57,648 bases of DNA, from positions 1-57,648 of the forward strand of contig JAFZVQ010000066.1 of assembly GCA_017617715.1 (NCBI GenBank). The letters are read 5' to 3'. The DNA comes from Bacteroidales bacterium. Lineage in GTDB: Bacteria; Bacteroidota; Bacteroidia; Bacteroidales; UBA932. Shown piece by piece: positions 7,242-41,781 of the stretch. The notes below the pieces were generated by a model. The model was not told the origin of the DNA and ran no database searches. It worked only from the letters and a program-made list of their open reading frames with translations. Numbering within the stretch: position 1 is the first letter of the stretch; every line of letters starts with the position of its first letter. Made by a program: the position numbers and the translations under genes.

Positions 7242-8522
7242 TTATGCAGCGGCTTTCTGCTTCTGCGGGTCCTTGAACAGGATCATGAAGAGCACACCCA
7301 CCACGAAGGCGTAGCCTGCGAAAATGTACCATGCGCTGGCCCAGTTGGCCGGAGTGTTGAACACGTCGCATGCATCGACCACGGCGCCGGCGGCGAGGGT
7401 GCCGATCGTGGCGCCCAGACCGTTGGTCATCAGCATGAACACGCCCTGCGCGCTGGAGCGGATATCGGTGGTGGTGTTCTGCTCAACGTAGAGCGAACCG
7501 GAAATATTGAAGAAGTCGAATGCGACGCCGTAGACTATGCAGCTGAGCACGAACAGGAGCACTCCGGGCATGGCCGGGTTGCCGAGGCCGAAGAAGCCGA
7601 AACGGAACACCCATGCGAACATGGCTATGAGCATCACCTTCTTGATGCCGAACTTCTTCATGCAGAACGGTATCAGCAGGATACAGAGGGTTTCGGAGGC
7701 CTGCGAGATGGCTATCAGGGCGTTGGAATTCTTGACGGCGAAGGTGTCGGCAAGGGCGGGATCGGACGCGAAGGAGCCCAGGAAAGTGTTGGCATAGCCG
7801 TTGGTGACCTGGAGCGAAGCGCCAAGGAGCATCGAGAAGATGAAGAAAATGGCGAACTGGCCGTCCTTGAAGAGGCTGAAAGCCTTGAGGCCGAACGCGT
7901 CGGCGAAGGACTGCTTGCCGGAACTCTTGTTCACGGGGCAGGCCGGCATGCTCAGGGCGTAGCCGCAGAGCACCAGGGAAAGGATGCCGGACGAGAACAG
8001 CTGTGTATATGAATCCTGCATGGCCACGCCGCCTATCTTGAGGAAGTTGGTCAGCAGCATGCTGCATATGAAGCCGACGGTGCCGAACACGCGGATGGGC
8101 GGGAAGGCGACCACGGGATCCATCCCCTCCTTGCCGAGGGCGTTGTAGGCCACGGAATTGGCGATAGCGATGGTGGGCATGAAGAAGGCCACGCTGATGC
8201 TGTAGAGGATGAAGAGAGGGGCGAAAGCCACTCCGCCTCCGGCATTCATGCAGTAGAAGCCTGCGCCTATCATGGCAGCGCCGGCGATGCCGTGGCAGAG
8301 CGACAGCACCTTCTGCGCCTCAATCTTGCGGTCGGCCACAATACCCATGAGGGTGGGCATGAATATGGACACGATGCCCTGCATCGCAAAGAACCATTTG
8401 ATCTGGGAGCCCAGACCTATGTTTCCGAGATAACGGCCGAGAGAAGTCAGGTATGCACCCCAGACCGCGAACTCCAGGAAATTCATCAAGACAAGCTTGA
8501 TGGTAATGGGTTTGATTTTCAT
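7242..8522 (-). CDS. MFS nucleoside permease (NupG-type H+ symporter family)
   Basis: Inner-membrane proton-coupled transporter, 426 residues with about 12 hydrophobic spans. The N-terminus [25 protein letters not shown] resembles NupG/XapB nucleoside:H+ symporters, as do [20 protein letters not shown] and [13 protein letters not shown]. The ATG at 8522 is preferred to an in-frame TTG two codons earlier. It heads the operon permease-dut-murF-phosphoesterase. A promoter with -7 box TATATTTG lies at 8545-8552, only 12 bases from the oppositely oriented tgt -7 box. Nucleoside specificity is family-level inference. Confidence 0.88.
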
Positions 8523-17199: not shown

Positions 17200-18828
17200 A
17201 TGCCAGTGAAAAACGAATTTGATGTCATAATTATCGGTGGCGGCATCACGGGTGCGGGCACTGCGCGCGACTGCGCCATGCGCGGCCTGAAGGTGCTGCT
17301 CATCGAAAGACACGACATCGCCACAGGTGCCACCGGGCGCAACCACGGCCTGCTCCATTCGGGCGCCCGCTACGCCGTGAAGGACAGCGAGTCCGCCGAA
17401 GAGTGCATACGGGAGAACAAGATACTCCGCTCGATAGCCGCCAACTGCGTCGAAGACACGGGCGGCCTTTTCATCACCCTTCCGGAAGACGCCGACGCCG
17501 GCTTCGGCCTGGACTACCAGCAAAAATTCATTGAAGCCTGCACGAAGGCTGGAATTGATGCGCACGCCATCTCCCCCGCCGAGGCCATTGCGATGGAGCC
17601 CTCCGTGAACCCGACGCTCATCGGCGCCGTGGTCGTGCCGGACGGATCCGTGGATCCCTTCCGCCTCTGCGCCGCCAACGTGACCGACGCCGCCATGCAC
17701 GGGGCCAAAATACTCCCTTACACCGAGTTCCTCGATTTCGTGCGCGAAGGCGACACCATCCTCGGCGTGCGCGTCCGGGACGCCCGCAGCGGGCAGGAGT
17801 CCGAATACAGGGCCCCCGTGACCGTGAATGCCGCTGGCATCTGGGGGCACGGAGTGGCCGAAAAGGCCGGTGTGCACATCGGCATGTACCCCGCTAAAGG
17901 CGCCCTGCTCGTCTTCGGGCACCGCGTCAACAACGTGGTGATCAACCGCTGCCGCAAGTCGGCGGACGGCGACATCCTCGTGCCGGGCGACTCCGTGACC
18001 GTGATCGGCACCACGTCCACCAAGGTGCCTTTCGAAGAATGCGACCACATGGAAGTGACTCCGGACGAAGTTCGCCTGCTCCTGCGTGAAGGCTGCGCCC
18101 TCTGCCCCGCCCTCGCCAGCACCCGTATCCTGCGTGCCTATGCAGGCGTGCGGCCTCTGGTTGCCGACGACAGCGACCCCACCGGACGCAGCATCAGCCG
18201 CGGCATTGTGTGCCTCGACCACGAAACGCGCGACGGCATCAAGGGCTTCGTGAGCATCACCGGCGGCAAGCTGATGACCTACCGCCTGATGGCCGAGCTC
18301 GCCACGGACGCCGTGTGCCGCAAGCTGGGCGTCACCCAAGCCTGCACCACCGCCGAGACTCCCCTTCCCGGCTCCGCCGACGGCCGCATCGAATCCGTCA
18401 GCAAGCGCTTCGAAGGCAAGCCCAGCGCCGGCCAGAAAGGCGCCGCGGGCCGCCAGGGCGACCTCGTGGGCAAGATCCACTTCAACACCGAAGCCGACAG
18501 GCAGCTGGTATGCGAATGCGAGAACGTCACGCTTGCGGAAATCAAATACGCCGTAGCGGAACTGGGCGTCCGCAGCCTGGGCGACCTGCGGCGGCGCACG
18601 CGCGTGGGCATGGGCACCTGCCAGGGCACGCTCTGCATACGCAAGGCGGCCAAGGCGCTCGCCGAAGCGCTCGGCGACCCGTCCCTCGCCCCGAAGCTCG
18701 CCGCAGACTATCTGGACGAGCGCTGGAAAGGCATGCGCGCCGTGGGCTGGGGCGCCACCCTCCGCGAAATGGAGTTCATGCAAAGAGTCTATAAATTCGA
18801 GAAACCCTATTCCTATGATGAAGTTTGA
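17200..18828 (+). CDS. glpA: Anaerobic glycerol-3-phosphate dehydrogenase subunit A
   Basis: FAD subunit oxidising sn-glycerol 3-phosphate to dihydroxyacetone phosphate, with electrons passed through GlpB/GlpC to menaquinone. 542 residues. The N-terminal FAD site is VIIIGGGITGAGTARDCAMRG (given here as family motif GGGITGAG), then GATGRNHGLLHSGARY. The C-terminal BFD-like [2Fe-2S] domain has CECENVT and GMGTCQGTLC at about 434-480. It overlaps glpB by 14 bases. I see no clear TAnnTTTG box in the 31 bases after rnpB, so read-through from rnpB or an unusual promoter is possible. Confidence 0.95.
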   Translation: MPVKNEFDVIIIGGGITGAGTARDCAMRGLKVLLIERHDIATGATGRNHGLLHSGARYAVKDSESAEECIRENKILRSIAANCVEDTGGLFITLPEDADAGFGLDYQQKFIEACTKAGIDAHAISPAEAIAMEPSVNPTLIGAVVVPDGSVDPFRLCAANVTDAAMHGAKILPYTEFLDFVREGDTILGVRVRDARSGQESEYRAPVTVNAAGIWGHGVAEKAGVHIGMYPAKGALLVFGHRVNNVVINRCRKSADGDILVPGDSVTVIGTTSTKVPFEECDHMEVTPDEVRLLLREGCALCPALASTRILRAYAGVRPLVADDSDPTGRSISRGIVCLDHETRDGIKGFVSITGGKLMTYRLMAELATDAVCRKLGVTQACTTAETPLPGSADGRIESVSKRFEGKPSAGQKGAAGRQGDLVGKIHFNTEADRQLVCECENVTLAEIKYAVAELGVRSLGDLRRRTRVGMGTCQGTLCIRKAAKALAEALGDPSLAPKLAADYLDERWKGMRAVGWGATLREMEFMQRVYKFEKPYSYDEV

Positions 18829-19393
18829 CGTTGTTGTGATAGGAGGAGGCCTTGCCGGAATGACGGCGGCCACCGAGCTTCAGCGCTCCGGACTCCGCTG
18901 CGCCGTCGTGGCCGCGGGGCTTTCGCTCCACGATGCCCCGCGCCGTGATTTCAAGGCTGCCGGAGGCACTCTCCTCGCCGGTGACATAGTGGTTTCCGGA
19001 CAGATTGAGGGCGGGCGCCTCGTGAGCGTCCGCACCGAAAAGCTGGGCGAAGTCCTGCTCGAGGCCGACTGGTTCGTGCTGGCCACGGGCAAGTATTTCT
19101 CGCAGGGCATCGTGGCCGACATGGACAAAGTCTACGAACCCGTCTTCGGCCTCGACGTGGAATACGACGAAGACCGCTCCGGGTGGTTCGACCCGTCGTT
19201 CGCCGCGCCGCAGCGTTTCCTGGAATTCGGAGTGAAGACCATAGACGGATGCGCGCTCAAGGATGGTTCCCCCATCAGTAACCTGCTGCCCGCCGGCGAA
19301 GTGCTTGCCGGCCTGAGCAGCGCGCAGGGCGACGCCACCGCCGCAATCAGGCAGAGCGCGCTGGACGCTGTAGCAATAATAAGGAGGAAATAG
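18815..19393 (+). CDS. glpB: Anaerobic glycerol-3-phosphate dehydrogenase subunit B, short form
   Basis: 192 residues against about 420 in E. coli GlpB. The N-terminal flavin-binding motif FDVVVIGGGLAGMTAATELQ and a C-terminal flavin segment GEVLAGLSSAQGDATAAIRQ are kept, along with FVLATGKYFSQGIV in the middle. About half of the usual central sequence is absent, with no sign of frameshift. Start options are two adjacent ATGs (18815, 18818), both inside the end of glpA. The position between glpA and glpC supports the assignment as the subunit linking GlpA to GlpC. Confidence 0.85.
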   Translation: MMKFDVVVIGGGLAGMTAATELQRSGLRCAVVAAGLSLHDAPRRDFKAAGGTLLAGDIVVSGQIEGGRLVSVRTEKLGEVLLEADWFVLATGKYFSQGIVADMDKVYEPVFGLDVEYDEDRSGWFDPSFAAPQRFLEFGVKTIDGCALKDGSPISNLLPAGEVLAGLSSAQGDATAAIRQSALDAVAIIRRK

Positions 19394-19395
19394 CT

Positions 19396-20631
19396 ATGCA
19401 GGAGACCAATATAAGCGCAAAGAACTTCGAACAGTGCCAGAAGTGTTCGATATGCGAGACCGTGTGCCCCGTGATGGCCAACAATCCGGCCTATGGCGGC
19501 CCCAAGCGTTCAGGCCCCGACGGCGAGCGCTACCGCTTGAAGAACGGCATATTCTTCGACGATTCGCTGAAATACTGTCTCAACTGCAAACGTTGCGAGG
19601 TGGCATGCCCCTCCGGAGTGCGCATCGCCGACCTGATTCAGCAGGCCCGCATAGACTACGGCAGGAAAGCTCCCAAGCTGAGGGACATGATGCTTGCCAG
19701 CACCGACCAGATGGGTCCGGTCGCAGGCGCCTTCGCCCCCCTGGTGAATTTCTCCCTCGGGCTCTCCCCCGTCAAGGGCCTCATGGACCTGACCTTAGGC
19801 ATCGACAAGCACCGCACCCTGCCCAAGTATTCCTCCGAGACCTTCGTCCACTGGTTCAAGAAGAACGCGGCAGCAAAGCAGGACGCCTTCAGGAAACACA
19901 TAAGTTACTTCCACGGCTGCTACGCCAATTTCAACTATCCCCAGCTCGGAAAGGACTTCGTGGCCGTGCTCAACGCCTTCGGCTACGGGGTGCACCTGAT
20001 CGACGAGCGCTGCTGCGGCGTGGCGAAGATTGCCAACGGCATGATTCCCGCCGCCACGCGCGACGCCAGGACGAACATCGCCGAATTCGAAAAGGCCGTC
20101 TCGCAGGGCCGCGACATAGTGACCGTGTCCACCACCTGCACCATGACGCTGCTTGAGGAATATCCTGAGCTGCTGAAAGTTGACAATTCCAAGGTGAAGG
20201 ATCACATCAGCCTCGTGGAGCAGTTCCTATACAAGGCAATTGCTTCCGGGGAGGTCAAGCCGGTGTGGAAGGAAGGCTACAAGGCGCGCGCCGCCTACCA
20301 CTGCCCCTGCCATCAGGAAAGGCTGGGCCTCGGCATCTTCACCACAGAGCTCCTGAAGATGATTCCCGGCATGGAGTTGACCGAACTGGAGAGCAACTGC
20401 TGCGGCATCGCCGGCACCTACGGATTCAAGAAGGAGAACTACAAGTATTCGCAGATGATAGGCAAGCCCCTGTTCGACGACATAGCCGCACAGGCTCCGG
20501 AATTCGTGGCCTGCGAGTGCGAGACTTGCAAATGGCAGATTGAGATGTCCACGGGCGTGCCCGTGAAGAATCCGGTCAGCATACTGGCAGAAGCCCTCGA
20601 CCTGGAGGCGACAGCCGCCGCTAACCGTTGA
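19396..20631 (+). CDS. glpC: Anaerobic glycerol-3-phosphate dehydrogenase subunit C
   Basis: Iron-sulfur subunit passing electrons to the quinone pool. 411 residues. Two [4Fe-4S] motifs lie near the N-terminus (CQKCSICETVCP and CLNCKRCEVACP). Two CCG domains follow: HGCYANF...ERCCGVA...TTCTMTL and HCPCHQE...SNCCGIAGTYG...CETCKWQ. An AAGGAGGA Shine-Dalgarno sequence at 19381-19388 lies seven bases before the ATG, notable because such sites are rare in this phylum. The 3' end overlaps rimO on the other strand by 11 bases. Confidence 0.95.
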   Translation: MQETNISAKNFEQCQKCSICETVCPVMANNPAYGGPKRSGPDGERYRLKNGIFFDDSLKYCLNCKRCEVACPSGVRIADLIQQARIDYGRKAPKLRDMMLASTDQMGPVAGAFAPLVNFSLGLSPVKGLMDLTLGIDKHRTLPKYSSETFVHWFKKNAAAKQDAFRKHISYFHGCYANFNYPQLGKDFVAVLNAFGYGVHLIDERCCGVAKIANGMIPAATRDARTNIAEFEKAVSQGRDIVTVSTTCTMTLLEEYPELLKVDNSKVKDHISLVEQFLYKAIASGEVKPVWKEGYKARAAYHCPCHQERLGLGIFTTELLKMIPGMELTELESNCCGIAGTYGFKKENYKYSQMIGKPLFDDIAAQAPEFVACECETCKWQIEMSTGVPVKNPVSILAEALDLEATAAANR

Positions 20632-35438: not shown

Positions 35439-36380
35439 CTACAATCTTGACAGGAGTATCTCTGGGTCGGTCTCCGACATCAGTGAAACAGCGAACCATT
35501 TCTTGCCAAGGTCTTTTAGGGACGCGCCGATAAGATACACTTGATTGTCCATTATTAGGAAGCGGTCGTGAGATTTGGTGAACTCTTTCACGTCGATGAC
35601 CGGGTACTGGGCATTGTGCTTGGCAATGTCAAGCTGGAATTGTGGCGATATCTTTTGTGTGTAGATGGTTGTCGAAACGCCGCCCTCCCGCTTGTCCAAC
35701 ATAGTCAGGACGGTATCATCCACATAATTATCGATGAGGACGATACGTGTCTTGGCGCTCTTGATCAGCCCGCATATGAACTCATAGGCGTCAAAGATTT
35801 GACCGTCGAAGAATATGCCCTGTTTGGGCGTGATTGAACGCTCGTCTATCTTTCGGAAGAGTTCTTCAATCAGATGATCCGTCTCAATTTGTTTATACTC
35901 GATTCTGTCAAGTCGTTGAAAAACCTGGGCGTTAGATAGAAGGAAGTGACGCATGGCTACGAATGCCTCAATTATGCGAATGCTGATATCAATGGCCTCA
36001 GGGCTATGCAGAACGGTGGAAAGCATTGCTACTCCTTGCTCGGTAAATGCGTAAGGAGGATTAGAACTGTGTTTTAATGAAGACAACCTATCGCAACTTG
36101 CGATGACTTCAGTCGCCTCTTCTTCAGTTAGCTGAAATCTGAATGATTTGGGGAATCGCTTTAGATTTCGCTTGATTTGCTCATTCAGTCGTTTTGTCTC
36201 AACTCCAAATAGTTCTGCTAAATCTTTATCCACAATAACTTCAACACCTCTGACTCTAAATATTTTGTTTTCGATGTCTCTGTTATGTAACTGGTCGCAA
36301 TTTGCGACCGGTTGTACTAAACTTATCTGGTTGCCGTTTGCATCTGGTCCATGTGTTTGAGTGTCTTTTTTCTTTGCCAT
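35439..36380 (-). CDS. ORF6N-domain protein with C-terminal phospholipase-D-like domain
   Basis: 313 residues. An N-terminal ORF6N DNA-binding-type domain (about 33-145) has FRVRGVEVIVDKDLAELFGVET (motif VDKDLAELFGV), NLKRFPKSFRF and PYAFTEQGVAML. The C-terminal domain (about 185-313) resembles phospholipase D nucleases, but the HKD motif is HDRFLIMD (271-278) with IGASLKDLGKKWFAVS. ORF6N proteins are common phage- or mobile-DNA-associated genes in this phylum. The gene is visibly more AT-rich than its neighbours. Two palindromes lie inside the coding sequence, each encoding the same short motif (VANCDQL at 25-31, IASCDRL at 93-99). Confidence 0.85.
   Translation of the reverse strand: MAKKKDTQTHGPDANGNQISLVQPVANCDQLHNRDIENKIFRVRGVEVIVDKDLAELFGVETKRLNEQIKRNLKRFPKSFRFQLTEEEATEVIASCDRLSSLKHSSNPPYAFTEQGVAMLSTVLHSPEAIDISIRIIEAFVAMRHFLLSNAQVFQRLDRIEYKQIETDHLIEELFRKIDERSITPKQGIFFDGQIFDAYEFICGLIKSAKTRIVLIDNYVDDTVLTMLDKREGGVSTTIYTQKISPQFQLDIAKHNAQYPVIDVKEFTKSHDRFLIMDNQVYLIGASLKDLGKKWFAVSLMSETDPEILLSRL
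36090..36104. repeat. In-gene palindrome ATCGCAACTTGCGAT
   Basis: A perfect palindrome with one central base, inside the ORF6N gene. It shares the core TCGCAA-n-TTGCGA with the palindrome at 36293-36309 and lies in the same reading frame. Confidence 0.6.
36293..36309. repeat. In-gene palindrome GGTCGCAATTTGCGACC
   Basis: A perfect 17-base palindrome (one central base) near the start of the ORF6N gene. A related half site, AGCGACCGC, lies just upstream of the ATG near 36423-36431. The set could be autoregulatory operator sites or copies of a small palindromic repeat. Confidence 0.6.
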
Positions 36381-36841: not shown

Positions 36842-38686
36842 TCACGGTTGGAAAGAGCTCACGGTGGAGGCGTCGAGGACTTCGGCGAGGTCGCGGACGG
36901 GGCGGTCGGAGTAGCGGCGGAAGGTGGAGAGGCAGAGGGGGCAGGCGGTGGCTATGGCGTCGGCGCGGCTGCCGTAGAGGTTGTCCAGGGCCTTTCTGGT
37001 CATCACTTCCCTGTGGGCGAAATCGAGTGTGAGGCTGCCGAGCGAGCCGCCGCAGCAGATACTTTCAGCCCTGTTCTTTTCGGCCTCGGCAATGCCGGCG
37101 GCCTGGCCGATGAGCTTGCGAGGCGTTTCATAGATGCCGCAGCCGCGGCCCAGCTCGCACGGGTCGTGGTAGACATAGCAGATGTCGCTCTTCTCGAGCT
37201 TCAGTCTCCCCTGCTCGAGCAGCTCTGCAAAGAAGTCGGCGTAGTTGACCACACGCACACCGGGCAGCGAATAGCGCTCGGTGAATATCTTGTAGCAGAT
37301 AGGACAGCTCACCAGCAACACGGAAGCGCCGCTGCCCAGGATAATCTCCTGATTCTTGCGGATTAGGGCAAGGGCGGCGTCGATGCGGCCGGCGGTCAGG
37401 AGCGGGCGTCCGCAGCACAAGCCTTCCTCGCGGTCCATCCATGTGAACTCCACCCCGGCCTTCCCGAGCAGCGAGGTCACGGCCTTCCCTATCGACGGAG
37501 TCAGCCTCGTCATGCATCCGGAGAAATACAGCACCTTCGGTCCGGCGGCGGCCTTCGACACCTGTGCCGCCGCGGCCTGCACGAGCGGAGCCGTGTCGAT
37601 GGCGGCGAAATCCGGGGTCAGGCCGTATCGCCGCACCGAGCGCTGCGCCACACGCATCTTCGGCCCTTCCACCCCCACCTGGCACACCGCCTCACACTTG
37701 CCGCAGAGCAGGCACTTGTCGCTAATTTCCTCGATGCGTTTCTCGTTGCCGCGCCTGATCTGGCGGTTCAGATAGACCGTGCAGTCCTTGATGTTGACCT
37801 TCTGCACACTCATCGGGCAGGCGTCTATGCACACGCCGCAACCCGGACAGCTGAGCACCTGCATCTTGGCGAAGCCCTTGCGGGGATGCCTGATACGCAG
37901 GCCGGCGTTGCGCATGGGGATGAGCATCATCTCGGCAGGGATGTGCATATAGCGCGTGAACGGAAGCACTACCATGAAGATACCCAGAGCAATGCTGTAG
38001 GCCCACCAGGTCGGCAGGAGGTTAAGGTCGTTGCCCAGGAACTGGCGGAAAACCCAGTTGGCCGGAATGGTCAGGAAGGAGCCGCCGCTGATATGGGCCG
38101 TAAAACTTTCTGCCAGAAGCCGCAGGGGGAAAATGGCCCAGAGCGAATAAAGGCCGATGCGGTCCAGCATGCTGGGACGGGTGGTTCGGCGCATCCCGAA
38201 AAGCCTGGAGCGCACTCTCTTTATCATCGCCAGCGCGATGCCGGAAAGCACCAGCAGCAGGAAAAAGTCCATAAGGAAGAAGAGCACGGCTCCCCCTATC
38301 GTGGACTCGTTATTGGCGACGAAGTAATTGAAAAAGATAGGATAATAGAACAGATGCACACGCTCCGGGCAATAGATGAAGACTTCCAGGTGACCCAGCA
38401 GGATGAGCATGAACCATCCGAAAGCGATGCTGGAATGCATGAAACCAAGCATCTTGTTGCGCTTCCATAACTTAACGTGCAGCAGGCAGTTGCAGAATAT
38501 GTCCCAAATATTCTTAAGGGCGGTGGCGGGCGTTATGAGAGAGAGCAGGAACTTGCGCCTGTCTTCCCGGGGCAGCTGCCAGAGGATACGGAATAACCCG
38601 AACAGGCAGTAGCCGAGCACGAACACCATCCCGACAAGGAACGGCAGCACGAAAGGGTCGAATCCTATGGCAAACCTCTCTTTCAT
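36842..38686 (-). CDS. Membrane-bound Hdr-like protein: cytochrome-b-type membrane domain, two [4Fe-4S] sites, two CCG domains
   Basis: 614 residues that fuse what are separate subunits in HdrDE or DsrMK. Residues 10-250 hold about five membrane spans with possible haem histidines (H84, H99, H198, H248), NarI/HdrE-like. Two [4Fe-4S] sites follow (C280/283/286/290 and C325/328/331/335). Then come two CCG motifs (C391, CC424-425, C461xxC464; and C510, CC544-545, C582xxC585), the cysteine-rich module that binds non-cubane clusters in HdrB/HdrD. It probably exchanges electrons with menaquinone at the inner membrane. The start at 38686 overlaps the ferredoxin-like gene stop (ATGA). Partner and substrate are unknown. 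Confidence 0.88.
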   Translation of the reverse strand: MKERFAIGFDPFVLPFLVGMVFVLGYCLFGLFRILWQLPREDRRKFLLSLITPATALKNIWDIFCNCLLHVKLWKRNKMLGFMHSSIAFGWFMLILLGHLEVFIYCPERVHLFYYPIFFNYFVANNESTIGGAVLFFLMDFFLLLVLSGIALAMIKRVRSRLFGMRRTTRPSMLDRIGLYSLWAIFPLRLLAESFTAHISGGSFLTIPANWVFRQFLGNDLNLLPTWWAYSIALGIFMVVLPFTRYMHIPAEMMLIPMRNAGLRIRHPRKGFAKMQVLSCPGCGVCIDACPMSVQKVNIKDCTVYLNRQIRRGNEKRIEEISDKCLLCGKCEAVCQVGVEGPKMRVAQRSVRRYGLTPDFAAIDTAPLVQAAAAQVSKAAAGPKVLYFSGCMTRLTPSIGKAVTSLLGKAGVEFTWMDREEGLCCGRPLLTAGRIDAALALIRKNQEIILGSGASVLLVSCPICYKIFTERYSLPGVRVVNYADFFAELLEQGRLKLEKSDICYVYHDPCELGRGCGIYETPRKLIGQAAGIAEAEKNRAESICCGGSLGSLTLDFAHREVMTRKALDNLYGSRADAIATACPLCLSTFRRYSDRPVRDLAEVLDASTVSSFQP

Positions 38687-39009
38687 TGCTTCTTCCCGTA
38701 AATTCGGCACAAGCTCAGAATCAAGTGCCGGGTGTTAATACCTCTGGGACAGACCATGGTGCATTTCCCGCACAGCATGCAGCAGGACAGCATTTTCTCC
38801 ACATCCTTGCCGCGCTGGAGGTTAAGGATGAGCTTGCGTACGCTCATGCCCGACCATGGGCCGGCGGTGCAGGTGGATGTGCAGGAGCCGCAGGACATGC
38901 ACACGCGCACGCCCGGCTCCAGGGCCTCCAGCTTATGATAGAGCCCAAGGTCAACCTCATCCAGTTTCACGGAAGAACTCCTGGACAGCCCGAAACCGAA
39001 ATCAATCAT
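38683..39009 (-). CDS. HdrC-like double [4Fe-4S] protein
   Basis: 108 residues. Two [4Fe-4S] motifs: C37/C40/C43/C47 (CMSCGSCTSTC) and C77/C80/C83/C87 (CMLCGKCTMVCP), spaced as in HdrC. An extra cysteine (C76) precedes the second site. It probably wires the flavoprotein to the membrane subunit. The ATG at 39009 lies eight bases inside the end of the HdrA-like gene, and its stop overlaps the next start, so it is translated in strict sequence with its neighbours. Confidence 0.9.
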   Translation of the reverse strand: MIDFGFGLSRSSSVKLDEVDLGLYHKLEALEPGVRVCMSCGSCTSTCTAGPWSGMSVRKLILNLQRGKDVEKMLSCCMLCGKCTMVCPRGINTRHLILSLCRIYGKKQ

Positions 39010-40015
39010 TGCCGCTCAGGTAATTATGGATATCGAGCGCTGCGGCGCGGGCCTCGCCCACGGTCTCGGGGACGGTCTTGGTGCCGGTGCAGGCGCCGGC
39101 GAAGAAAATGCCGGGGCGGTTGGACTCATTGATGCGGTAGATGTTGTCGCGGCTGCGCATGAAGCCGTCGGAATCGACGTCGGCGCGCACCATGCGGGCC
39201 AGGCTCTGGGTGTCTTCGTTGCAAAGCATGCCGGACATCAGCACCAGCAGGTCGGCGCTGAGCTTCACCGGCGTGCCGGCAAGGGTGTCTTCAGCCTTCA
39301 GCACCACGCGGCCGTCGATGTCTTCCGATACTTCGGACACGCGCCCGCGCACGAAATGGATGCCGTGGTCGCGCTGGGCGGCTATGTAGAAGTCTTCGTA
39401 CTTCTTGCCGAAGAGGCGAAGGTCCATGTAGAAACACCATATATCGGCCTGCGGGAACTTCTCCTTCATCTCGATTGCCTGCTTGATGGCTGTCATGCAG
39501 CACACCTTGGAGCACTGCGGGTTGCCGGCCTTGAGGTCACGGGAGCCGACGCAATGGACAAAGGCAACGGAGGCGGGATTGTCCGGGATACGGTAGTCGG
39601 GCGCGCCACCCAGCCAGGCCTCAAGGTCGGAATTGGTGACCACATGGTCGTAGACACCGTAGCCGTATTCCTCCTTCCGGGAGGCGTCGAACAGGCGGAA
39701 GCCGGTGGAAATCAGCACCGCGCCGCACTGCAGGTTGACGCCGTTGGACAGCATCACGCTGTAGCCGCTGCCCAGGCGGTTCATGTTGGCGACGCGGGTG
39801 CGGTAATACACCGTGACGCCGTCAAGCCCGGCGGCGAGCTGCTCCACCAGCTCCCGTGCGGACATCATGTCCGGGAAGAGCTTGTACCAGCCTGCTACGT
39901 GGCCGCCCAGGTGGTCGGATTTCTCCACGATCACGGGCTCATGGCCGAGTTGCAGGAGCCTGCGGGCCGCTTCCATTCCGGCTATACCGCCTCCTATTAT
40001 CGCTATCTTTTCCAT
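39002..40015 (-). CDS. HdrA-like FAD and iron-sulfur protein, compact form
   Basis: 337 residues, about half the length of a methanogen HdrA. The FAD-binding N-terminus is IAIIGGGIAGMEAARRL, then VIVEKSDHLGGHVAGW. The HdrA cysteine motif is present: C155 (HCVGSRD), C168, C172 and C173 (CSKVCCMTAIKQA). A C-terminal flavin segment GIFFAGACTGTKTVPETVGEA follows. The extra ferredoxin domains found in larger HdrA proteins are missing. In relatives HdrA holds the flavin where electrons split; whether bifurcation occurs in this compact form is unknown. It lies three bases after the HdrB-like gene. Confidence 0.88.
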   Translation of the reverse strand: MEKIAIIGGGIAGMEAARRLLQLGHEPVIVEKSDHLGGHVAGWYKLFPDMMSARELVEQLAAGLDGVTVYYRTRVANMNRLGSGYSVMLSNGVNLQCGAVLISTGFRLFDASRKEEYGYGVYDHVVTNSDLEAWLGGAPDYRIPDNPASVAFVHCVGSRDLKAGNPQCSKVCCMTAIKQAIEMKEKFPQADIWCFYMDLRLFGKKYEDFYIAAQRDHGIHFVRGRVSEVSEDIDGRVVLKAEDTLAGTPVKLSADLLVLMSGMLCNEDTQSLARMVRADVDSDGFMRSRDNIYRINESNRPGIFFAGACTGTKTVPETVGEARAAALDIHNYLSGND

Positions 40016-40018
40016 ATG

Positions 40019-41089
40019 CTAACAACATTTGAGCACCGTGGGCATCTGGGGCTTGAGAAGATCTTCCTTGTTGACGCCCAGATACTTGGCAGAAGGGTCG
40101 TATTCAATTCCTATCTTGTCCAGCAACGGCTCCACGGCCACCTGGTGCAGCTGCAGGCCGAGATCCCATGGGTCGTAGCCCAGCACGAGGCCGGCCAGTT
40201 CTTCGTATGTGAACACGGGTATGCCGAAGCCGTCGCGGCCATAGGTCTTGCCGGTCTGCTCGGCAATCACGTACTGCCAGCGGTCCAGGAAATACGGGCA
40301 CCCCGGGCAGTTGGTGATGATGGCGTCCGGATGGTAAGGCTCCATGGATTCGAACTTCTTATGGGTGTTGGAGACGCTGTAGCCACGGTTGGCCTTGACG
40401 AGGTACTGCCTGAAGCCGAAGCCGCAGCAGTGCCTGCGTTCGGGGTAATCAACGACCTCGCCGCCCCAGGATTCCACCATCCCGCTCAGCACGCACGGGT
40501 ATTCTGCGCCGCCTATGCCTTTGTGGGGAAACATTTTGGAGTAGTGGCAGCCGATATGCTCCACTATGCGCAGGGGCAGACCGGTCTCCTTGTCCACCAG
40601 GCGGAACCGGGCGCGTTCGGCTATTTCGCTGCGGTATTTATACACGAGGTCGCTGGCGTGGGCCACGTACTCCGGCTTGTCGAATTCGCGGCGGGTGGCC
40701 TTCCATAGGTTTTCACGTATGCGGGCCTCCAGTTCCGGGTATTCGCGCCAGGTTTCCAGGATTTCGGTGTAATTGCCGAAAGAAGTAATGCAGCTGGTCA
40801 CGAGATTTTTGTAGCCGGCCTCCTTCATCAGGGCGAACTGGCGGGCCACTATGGTCATCGCCGTCTCCTGCGGTATGGTGTCGCTGTGGTAGGCTATGCC
40901 GCCGCAGGTTGTGTGGTGTTCGGTCTCGTAGATGTCGTGCCCCAGCAGGTCGCGGCAGATGGCGAGAAAGTATTTTTCCGATGCCGGGAAGAAATTCTGC
41001 CGTATGCAGCTCCGGACGTAGAACCAGCCGTCGGCGGGTATATCTTTCTGGTAGTCGGACCAGATTCTCTGTTTGCCCTGGTAGATCAT
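40019..41089 (-). CDS. HdrB-like CCG-domain protein with one degenerate CCG motif
   Basis: 356 residues with two CCG-type domains. The second is complete: C181 (GCHYSKMFP), CC221-222 (RRHCCGFGFRQ) and C261xxC264 (NCPGCPYF). The first is eroded: C28 (RSCIRQNFFPASE), a single C62 (TTCGG instead of CCG) and C100 followed by ITS rather than a second cysteine. One non-cubane [4Fe-4S] cluster is therefore likely, rather than the two of true HdrB. HdrB is where a disulfide is reduced in methanogens; the substrate here is unknown. The ATG overlaps the HdrC-like stop by four bases. Confidence 0.88.
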   Translation of the reverse strand: MIYQGKQRIWSDYQKDIPADGWFYVRSCIRQNFFPASEKYFLAICRDLLGHDIYETEHHTTCGGIAYHSDTIPQETAMTIVARQFALMKEAGYKNLVTSCITSFGNYTEILETWREYPELEARIRENLWKATRREFDKPEYVAHASDLVYKYRSEIAERARFRLVDKETGLPLRIVEHIGCHYSKMFPHKGIGGAEYPCVLSGMVESWGGEVVDYPERRHCCGFGFRQYLVKANRGYSVSNTHKKFESMEPYHPDAIITNCPGCPYFLDRWQYVIAEQTGKTYGRDGFGIPVFTYEELAGLVLGYDPWDLGLQLHQVAVEPLLDKIGIEYDPSAKYLGVNKEDLLKPQMPTVLKCC

Positions 41090-41781
41090 TCGTTATTGAA
41101 ATGGCCGGTTGAACAATGGGTGAATGTGTATTCAGCGTACTCCTCCATGGTCATGCCCATCTCCTTTGCCTTCGCGCGGGAGTGTTTTTCCACAAGTTCC
41201 AGGCGTTCGGTGCCGCCGGTGACGTCGTAGATTGCCTTGAGTTCGTCGAGGTCTTCCTGAGGGATCTTGCGGAGGGCGCCCGGCCCTTTGCCCCGATAAT
41301 TTGCGCCCAGACGGGCGTAGACCTGTTCCTTGTGGTCCAGGGCCCATTCGAAGACGGGGCCGGATTCGGGGTGGTCTTTGTAGGCAAAGGTGGCGGGGTG
41401 GACGCAGTAGCCGTAATTGAGCACGTTGCCGTTCAGCACTTTTGTGAGGGGGTAGATTTGCCGCCCCTTTTCGGATTCGGTGAAGAAGCCCAGGCGTATG
41501 CTGAGGTCGCGGAGGGCCATTATGACGAGCCCGGGGCCGTTCTTCCTGGGGCATCTGGTCACGCAGCTCATGCATTCGCCGCAGTACCAGATGGTGTCGC
41601 TTTTCAGAAGGGATTCAATCTTGCCGTTGTCGCGGGTCTGCACGATGGACACGATCTTGCGGGGGTCGTATTTGTAAAACTCCGCCGCCGGGCAGACCGC
41701 CGTGCATGTGCCGCAATTGATGCAGGTGTGGAACCCTTCCTTGAACCGGTAATCCTTATTTAGCTCTTCAAAATAGTCCAT
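41086..41781 (-). CDS. HdrC-like [4Fe-4S] protein, first gene of the Hdr-like operon
   Basis: 231 residues. Two [4Fe-4S] motifs: C20/C23/C26/C30 (CINCGTCTAVCP) and C67/C70/C73/C77 (CGECMSCVTRCPRKNGPG). A helical C-terminal half of about 150 residues follows, ending in TFTHCSTGHFNNE. The ATG at 41781 fits the family start; sequence upstream in frame crosses the promoters and rpsF. The -7 box TAATTTTG ends six bases before this ATG, so the mRNA should be leaderless or nearly so. Translation of all five genes is then coupled by overlaps or a three-base gap. Confidence 0.9.
   Translation of the reverse strand: MDYFEELNKDYRFKEGFHTCINCGTCTAVCPAAEFYKYDPRKIVSIVQTRDNGKIESLLKSDTIWYCGECMSCVTRCPRKNGPGLVIMALRDLSIRLGFFTESEKGRQIYPLTKVLNGNVLNYGYCVHPATFAYKDHPESGPVFEWALDHKEQVYARLGANYRGKGPGALRKIPQEDLDELKAIYDVTGGTERLELVEKHSRAKAKEMGMTMEEYAEYTFTHCSTGHFNNE

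Follow-up and report, generated by a model that had tools for sequence, protein, structure and literature searches.

The window analysed here, meaning the whole stretch of 57,648 nucleotides, is one contig (JAFZVQ010000066.1) of a Bacteroidales genome assembly (GCA_017617715.1; 2.32 Mb, 76.6% complete), and it carries a series of five genes related to those of heterodisulfide reductase (Hdr), referred to below as C1, B1, A, C2 and BM. Comparison of their sequences gives good support to their homology and architecture: the C1-B1-A core is related to that of the sHdr systems, the membrane half is not, and the novelty lies in the membrane output module and in a locus without sHdrH or lbpA. The reading that we favour, to which we give about even credence, is that the five genes specify a third, membrane-anchored architecture within the sHdr superfamily, whose main activity would be that of a thiol or sulfane-sulfur:menaquinone oxidoreductase.

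Organization of the five genes

According to the list of open reading frames (ORFs), all five genes lie on the minus strand and run from position 41781 to 36842 in the order C1-B1-A-C2-BM. Their features are as follows.

41086..41781, minus strand: C1, HdrC-like protein of 231 amino acids with two [4Fe-4S] sites, ATG start (Fer4 families; HdrC profile, 5e-23)
40019..41089, minus strand: B1, sHdr-type HdrB-like protein of 356 amino acids; C-terminal CCG domain complete, N-terminal CCG domain degenerate
39002..40015, minus strand: A, compact HdrA of 337 amino acids, with sites for flavin adenine dinucleotide (FAD) and one [4Fe-4S] cluster (matches sHdrA 6tjr_A over its full length)
38683..39009, minus strand: C2, small HdrC-like protein of 108 amino acids with two [4Fe-4S] sites
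36842..38710, minus strand: BM, fusion protein of a cytochrome b-like part with a pair of [4Fe-4S] sites and a pair of CCG domains; 622 amino acids from GTG or 614 from ATG
37913..38653, minus strand: putative membrane, cytochrome b-like part of BM, residues ~20-266; His78, His92, His256, Trp99 and Phe245 invariant in the alignment
37682..37849, minus strand: two [4Fe-4S] sites of BM (Cys288, 291, 294, 298, 333, 336, 339, 343)
37295..37516, minus strand: first CCG domain of BM (Cys399, 432, 433, 469, 472)
36932..37159, minus strand: second CCG domain of BM (Cys518, 552, 553, 590, 593)

Residue numbers in BM follow the 622-amino acid reading. With its GTG start BM overlaps C2 by 28 bases, and with the ATG at 38686 by 4 bases; the latter, giving the protein of 614 amino acids, is probably the true start. 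C1 and B1 overlap by 4 bases, B1 and A are separated by 3, and A and C2 overlap by 8. The original prediction, made from the letters of the DNA, had described an Hdr-like series of five genes, and all five ORFs, their strand, order and junctions agree with that description.

Conservation and distribution of the gene order

Of the 198 genomes sampled from the order, 65, among them that of the window, encode full-length compact HdrA (E <= 2.9e-72), and a clear gap in E-value lies below this set, the next match (8.1e-54) being in a frame of 588 amino acids. Two of the 65 (G059 and G215) have a stop codon inside the matched stretch. These counts refer to compact HdrA only, and the five-gene order was inspected in part of the 65. 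Since only 12 of 31 genomes within the genus carry the gene, it can be regarded as accessory.

Gene order was followed in 120 loci. Forty are from the order or genus, 40 of the 75 other gene-bearing genomes, most of them picked for their long contigs, having been sampled in pieces no longer than 20 kb. The remainder are the best 80 of 585 named HdrA relatives; these 80 have Bacteroidales, Bacteroidia or Bacteroidota titles and are mostly metagenome-assembled genomes, with several Candidatus Cryptobacteroides and many from rumen, horse, goat, deer and chicken. The order C1-B1-A-C2-BM is kept in 112 of the 120 loci, so that its conservation, proposed earlier as a point to check, is borne out. 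Because it persists in 37 of 40 order or genus loci and 75 of 80 named loci, despite HdrA identities of 38-49% outside the genus, it is not a product of chance.

Three loci of the order or genus depart from this arrangement. L050 has neither C1 nor B1, L077 reads C1-C2-BM-B1-A, and L078, from genome G031, has B1-A only; C1, C2 and BM were not found in the searched parts of its 54-kb contig. In G120, neither C1 nor B1 was found in the further flanks. There are five exceptions among the named loci, some of them short contigs. The rearrangement in L077 looks as if C2-BM and B1-A move as blocks. Three other candidates were rejected: a C1-B1 fusion in L058, read as 585 amino acids and considered as a sign of a single complex, is an artefact (the ORF list has two genes, with a stop at 8000); the splitting of BM in L054 coincides with a run of masked bases; and an apparent A-C2-C1-BM order in L050 arose from the C1 query matching C2.

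Wider searches, outside the order, were made with profiles. Among 247 Bacteroidota genomes, at E 1e-40 and with up to five candidates scored per genome, the only full-length match to the BM profile was the window's own. The B1 profile gave two strong matches, both in clusters like type II sHdr, and 14 weak partial ones. Sampling beyond Bacteroidota comprised two plasmid matches, one of which, from Picosynechococcus sp. PCC 7003, was examined.

Relationship to sHdr systems

Two types of sHdr cluster have been described (papers are cited throughout from excerpts): type I is shdrC1B1AHC2B2 and type II is shdrC1B1AHB3 with etfAB, and sHdrA, sHdrC1 and the proposed catalytic sHdrB1 are common to both (PMC11582611). 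The C1-B1-A order of sHdr is also given in PMC6067878. HdrA from the window aligns end to end with sHdrA 6tjr_A, with 31% identity over the kept columns. Trees of HdrA and of a CCG subunit, the kind of test suggested earlier, place HdrA beside sHdrA and B1 apart from HdrB. The HdrA tree has 43 rows (18 compact Bacteroidales proteins, one cyanobacterial protein, three sHdrA and 21 other Bacteroidales HdrA-type proteins); within it the compact Bacteroidales proteins group with the cyanobacterial protein (98/97); this compact group is sister to sHdr types I and II (100/99), and together with sHdr it is split from the 21 other rows, of 296-931 amino acids (96/91). The cyanobacterial protein sits inside a poorly resolved Bacteroidales radiation. 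Other Bacteroidales HdrA paralogues (L187-L198), which are longer or Qmo-like and often paired, fall outside the compact clade.

In the B1 tree (27 rows: 18 Bacteroidales, one cyanobacterial, two type II B1 and six HdrB), the 21 B1 proteins separate from the six HdrB (100/100), with some long branches flagged. Thr or Ser at position 61 followed by Cys62, together with Cys100, is present in 21 of 21 B1 proteins, and Ser103 in 20 of 21 (Thr in L075), whereas the HdrB proteins compared have cysteine at 61, 62, 100 and 103 in six of six. Judged from the two type II rows, a degenerate N-terminal CCG domain would define B1 of the sHdr type. Cys261 is kept in the Bacteroidales and cyanobacterial B1 and is Asp in both type II proteins.

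Comparison with the known clusters shows where the resemblance ends. The operon shares with type I, for example that of Hyphomicrobium denitrificans, the C1-B1-A order, a compact HdrA and a C2 gene after A, but it is without sHdrH, has no lbpA among its five genes, has a C2 of 108 amino acids and has the fused membrane protein BM instead of B2. Because A and C2 overlap, there is no H gene between them, and with B2 also missing the synteny is not shdrC1B1AHC2B2. Type II-like clusters, C1-B1-A-B3 with ETF genes (assigned by Pfam), were found in two Bacteroidota genomes from outside the class, G232 and G314:

L220, 4358-11210: type II-like sHdr cluster, with a candidate H gene (no Pfam match)
L221, 5457-11627: type II-like sHdr cluster, with no H gene between A and B3

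Their C1-B1-A core is 27-34% identical to that of the window, and the degenerate N-terminal CCG domain of B1 is common to both; they differ in having B3 (428 amino acids, C2-CCG) and ETF genes where the window has BM, and Asp at the position of Cys261. Neither H nor B3 is among the five genes, so the synteny is not that of type II.

The closest core found outside Bacteroidales is on the Picosynechococcus sp. PCC 7003 plasmid (L161, 7068-12808), with identities of 47% for C1, 42% for B1 and 44% for A. Its cluster reads C1-B1-A-C2-B2 and is followed by a sulfide:quinone reductase gene, which links a relative to sulfur and to quinone. As in the window, nothing lies between A and C2; in contrast, its C2 has 203 amino acids, and an HdrB-type B2 and the sulfide:quinone reductase stand where the window has BM.

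The original prediction saw in the genes an Hdr-like operon for electron transfer, its membrane subunit a fusion of the quinone type, and set it apart from textbook Hdr, Qmo and Dsr complexes. These comparisons support it in part. The description holds and the statement of unlikeness is correct, but sHdr was left out of the comparison: the C1-B1-A order and the compact HdrA belong to the core that sHdr complexes share. It had also been asked there whether the subunits form a characterised complex with a known substrate; relatives have been characterised, and the architecture itself, as far as searched, has not.

Cysteine motifs and cofactor sites

In these families, thiols or disulfides bind at CCG clusters and HdrC-type proteins serve as electron relays. 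HdrA carries FAD together with a cluster, and cytochrome b parts like that in BM interact with quinones. The cysteines expected of such proteins are strongly conserved. All 18 aligned HdrA sequences have Cys155, 168, 172 and 173; the motif read earlier as C155...C172C173 named three of these, and Cys168 is its fourth member. Eight cluster cysteines are invariant in C1 (17 aligned rows) and eight in C2 (17/17), and in BM all ten CCG cysteines and all eight [4Fe-4S] cysteines are invariant in 17 of 17. CCG motifs had been reported as visible without distinction. Both are complete in BM, but B1 has a single complete CCG domain: its N-terminal domain keeps Cys28, 62 and 100, has Thr or Ser at 61 and Ser or Thr at 103, and so is two of five cysteines short in all 18 Bacteroidales B1 proteins. 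The predicted structure of B1 (AlphaFold, mean pLDDT 79.5) resembles HdrB 5odc_B (TM 0.82 by target length), confidence being lower at residues 181-200 and 221-240, which lie close to a portion of the C-terminal CCG domain.

These details bear on the idea that the genes encode a textbook bifurcating HdrABC, in which ferredoxin, NADH or H2 is coupled to heterodisulfide reduction. Homology to HdrA, HdrB and HdrC is in its favour, yet we disfavour it as very improbable. HdrA has 337 amino acids here versus 643-671 in solved full-length HdrA with its additional domains, and it falls outside the clade of longer HdrA proteins; HdrB of the coenzyme M-coenzyme B enzyme has two complete CCG domains, whereas the N-terminal one of B1 is incomplete; and no hydrogenase, formate dehydrogenase or Flox family is prominent among the 25 commonest families of neighbouring genes.

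The membrane subunit

The last subunit had been described as joining a quinone-type membrane domain to an HdrD-like module, and this fusion is supported: the soluble half of BM matches EtfD (9ojn, 1.1e-34) and HdrB. EtfD, a membrane electron-transfer flavoprotein (ETF):menaquinone oxidoreductase, binds one heme b through His78 and His241, includes Phe85 and Phe230 in its quinone site, and uses its first CCG domain to bind a linear [3Fe-4S] cluster (PMC13083937). In a hand-counted alignment of weak register, EtfD His78, His241, Phe230 and Phe85 correspond to the invariant His92, His256, Phe245 and Trp99 of BM. One heme b and a quinone site in BM are thus plausible from sequence, and we put it no higher because the membrane alignment to EtfD is weak despite the matching ligand positions.

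Several known proteins combine similar parts in other ways. EtfD, whose membrane part has five helices, resembles BM in joining a membrane part, two [4Fe-4S] sites and two CCG domains in one chain, but each CCG domain of BM has five cysteines whereas the first of EtfD holds the linear [3Fe-4S] cluster. In HdrDE the same parts are spread over two chains. To our knowledge, neither EtfD nor HdrDE is accompanied by a C1-B1-A core. QmoABC has an HdrA-type flavoprotein, HdrC-type clusters and a menaquinone-linked membrane cytochrome b, and QmoC fuses HdrC-like and HdrE-like parts; BM instead fuses HdrE-like and HdrD-like parts, and neither a second HdrA-type flavoprotein nor an HdrC-HdrE fusion is found among the five genes.

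The likeness to HdrDE raises the question of direction. If the complex ran in reverse, menaquinol, driven by the membrane potential, would reduce a disulfide or trisulfide at one of the CCG sites, a direction that has been proposed for HdrDE and DsrMK. Along with the HdrDE-like fusion of cytochrome b and an HdrD-like module, the two complete CCG domains of BM, with their ten invariant cysteines, speak for this, and paired noncubane clusters are needed for disulfide cleavage in HdrB (PMC13083937). We nevertheless regard it as unlikely, since it leaves the retention of a full sHdr-type C1-B1-A core unexplained and no gene for a known disulfide substrate lies nearby (genes for DsrC, the partner of DsrMK, and for coenzymes M and B were not searched for).

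Neighbouring and partner genes

Of the families obtained by clustering the genes around the 120 loci, the 22 largest were considered; none of these occurs in more than eight of the 40 order or genus loci. The commonest, directly downstream and mainly in the 80 named relatives, is a pyridoxal-phosphate enzyme (by Pfam), probably threonine synthase. The earlier remark that no obvious partner lies nearby holds up; the check for conserved neighbours (120 loci, with Pfam on 80 neighbours) found none that would reveal the substrate. In the window itself, the ORF downstream of the operon (35439-36380, minus strand, 313 amino acids) is an ORF6N-domain protein (Pfam, 7.8e-29), a type often tied to phage or mobile regulators. 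Elsewhere in the window, a glpB-like gene of 192 amino acids (18815-19393, plus strand) lies between glpA (17200-18828) and glpC (19396-20631); its product aligns to GlpB residues ~3-34 and 262-398, the middle of the protein being missing.

Partner families (GcvH, ETF_alpha, TusA, MenA, MenB and MqnA/D) were scored over the same 198 genomes. They bear on the possibility of genuine sHdr sulfur oxidation. Here sulfane sulfur would arrive on carriers of the TusA or DsrE type and be oxidized to sulfite while held by a lipoate-binding protein, and BM would be the outlet to quinone. The sister relationship of HdrA to sHdrA, the sHdr character of B1 and the sulfide:quinone reductase beside the cyanobacterial relative all fit this, and a study of Black Sea isolates including Bacteroidota reports a complete heterodisulfide reductase gene set, which may or may not be the present one, and proposes possible sulfur oxidation for such an Hdr system (PMC11129491). 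The partner genes argue otherwise. In the sHdr route this lipoate-binding protein resembles GcvH (PMC6067878). A GcvH-family protein is present in 60 of the 65 HdrA genomes, but no GcvH or LbpA homologue was found in the window's genome (77% complete) or in G034, G048, G077 and G153 (94-99% complete), and three of these four near-complete genomes show the five genes (L066, L061, L022 (BM cut by contig end)). TusA is not associated with HdrA (24 of 65 genomes with it, 57 of 133 without), sHdrH is absent from the five genes, and B1 keeps the Cys261 that is Asp in both type II proteins. We consider this route quite improbable.

A further possibility is an EtfD-like complex, in which EtfAB or another flavoprotein donates electrons to BM and C1-B1-A forms an accessory branch. 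The match of the soluble half of BM to EtfD suits it, and type II sHdr clusters include ETF genes (PMC11582611; L220, L221). The operon, however, is without etf genes, and no ETF family is among the 25 commonest neighbour families. ETF_alpha is likewise not associated with HdrA (60/65 genomes with it, 119/133 without) and was not found in five HdrA genomes, namely the window's, G159, G184, G208 (99% complete) and G059 (100% complete), the last being one whose HdrA match holds a stop. Such a complex seems to us decidedly improbable.

Of the quinone markers, MenB or MqnA/D is present in 49 of the 65 HdrA genomes, and 15 of the 16 without either have a MenA-family match, as if salvaging a precursor. 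The sole HdrA genome without a match to MenB, MqnA/D or MenA is G031, whose locus has B1-A and no BM, a coincidence that speaks for the quinone link; a missing MenA match means little because MenA detection is uneven. MenB is rarer with HdrA (12/65 vs 52/133, p 0.004) and Mqn commoner (39/65 vs 48/133, p 0.002), a skew from which nothing is concluded because relatedness between genomes is uncontrolled. Across the order, MenB is over the cut-off in 64 of 198 genomes and MqnA/D in 87 of 198, and many genomes have neither. One of these, G038, of the same genus as the window's genome, has MenA-family matches, a possible case of quinone-precursor salvage.

Proposed function

In the oxidoreductase reading that we favour, a thiol, persulfide or disulfide would be handled by B1 and possibly also by the two CCG domains of BM. 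Electrons would pass through the clusters of C1 to the FAD and cluster of A, then to C2 and BM, and through one heme b to menaquinone, feeding an anaerobic chain that would probably end at fumarate. The substrate, the direction and the order of carriers are guesses; that the five proteins would assemble as one complex with one heme b and a link to quinone is what we infer from their homology and arrangement. Oxidation is the preferred direction because, on generally known potentials, electrons from typical thiols would run downhill to menaquinone (about -74 mV). In support of the reading stand the gene order kept across the loci, the placement of HdrA and B1 in the two trees, the published C1-B1-A order of sHdr, the sulfide:quinone reductase gene beside the cyanobacterial core, the agreement of invariant BM residues with the heme and quinone positions of EtfD, and the quinone markers of the HdrA genomes, with G031 lacking both markers and BM.

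Several points weigh against this reading. The membrane stretch of BM is not significantly similar to that of EtfD by itself (score -5.2), and the hhalign comparison (E 5.6e-4, 30% probability) spans His92 and Trp99 and ends before Phe245 and His256. No neighbour names a substrate: among the 25 commonest Pfam families, the top one accounts for four of 80 same-strand neighbours. Quinone markers are not enriched with HdrA (49/65 vs 99/133 without it), and neither MenB nor MqnA/D is found in the window's genome or in G038, which is 100% complete. The MenA-family match in the window's genome, at 73.8 bits, is below the cut-off of 102.15, and MenA-family matches may be other prenyltransferases. The coincidence in G031, which has neither quinone markers nor BM, is a single case, and missing matches are weak evidence. 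The set for comparison with sHdr is small (three sHdrA and two sHdr-type B1, with the flagged long branches in the B1 tree), the cyanobacterial case is a single plasmid record, and a single complex of the five proteins is itself presumed.

A broader proposal takes the operon as a third, respiratory class of sHdr: a membrane-bound thiol/persulfide:menaquinone oxidoreductase of fermentative Bacteroidales from gut, rumen and sediment, whose substrate would not be lipoate-bound sulfur. The core would then be a general sulfur-redox module with at least four outputs, namely C2-B2, B3 with ETF, C2-B2 with sulfide:quinone reductase, and cytochrome b. We offer this tentatively, as possible but on balance rather doubtful.

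Novelty and significance

No description of the five-gene architecture was found in the excerpts available from open-licence literature on Hdr and sHdr, including work on Bacteroidota and cyanobacteria; it does not appear in those of PMC8470020, PMC10266427, PMC7382037, PMC13384644, PMC10451225 and PMC8076601.

Systems of the sHdr type have so far been known from sulfur oxidizers, and here a sister lineage turns up in the Bacteroidales order, in 65 of the 198 genomes sampled. It offers a natural comparison for the role of B1 and A in the absence of LbpA, and for the contribution of a membrane module. Because the gene is patchy within the genus (12/31), the growth and gene content of close relatives with and without it can be compared. 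If the favoured reading is true, these fermenters would own an unrecognized, quinone-linked entry point for redox metabolism.

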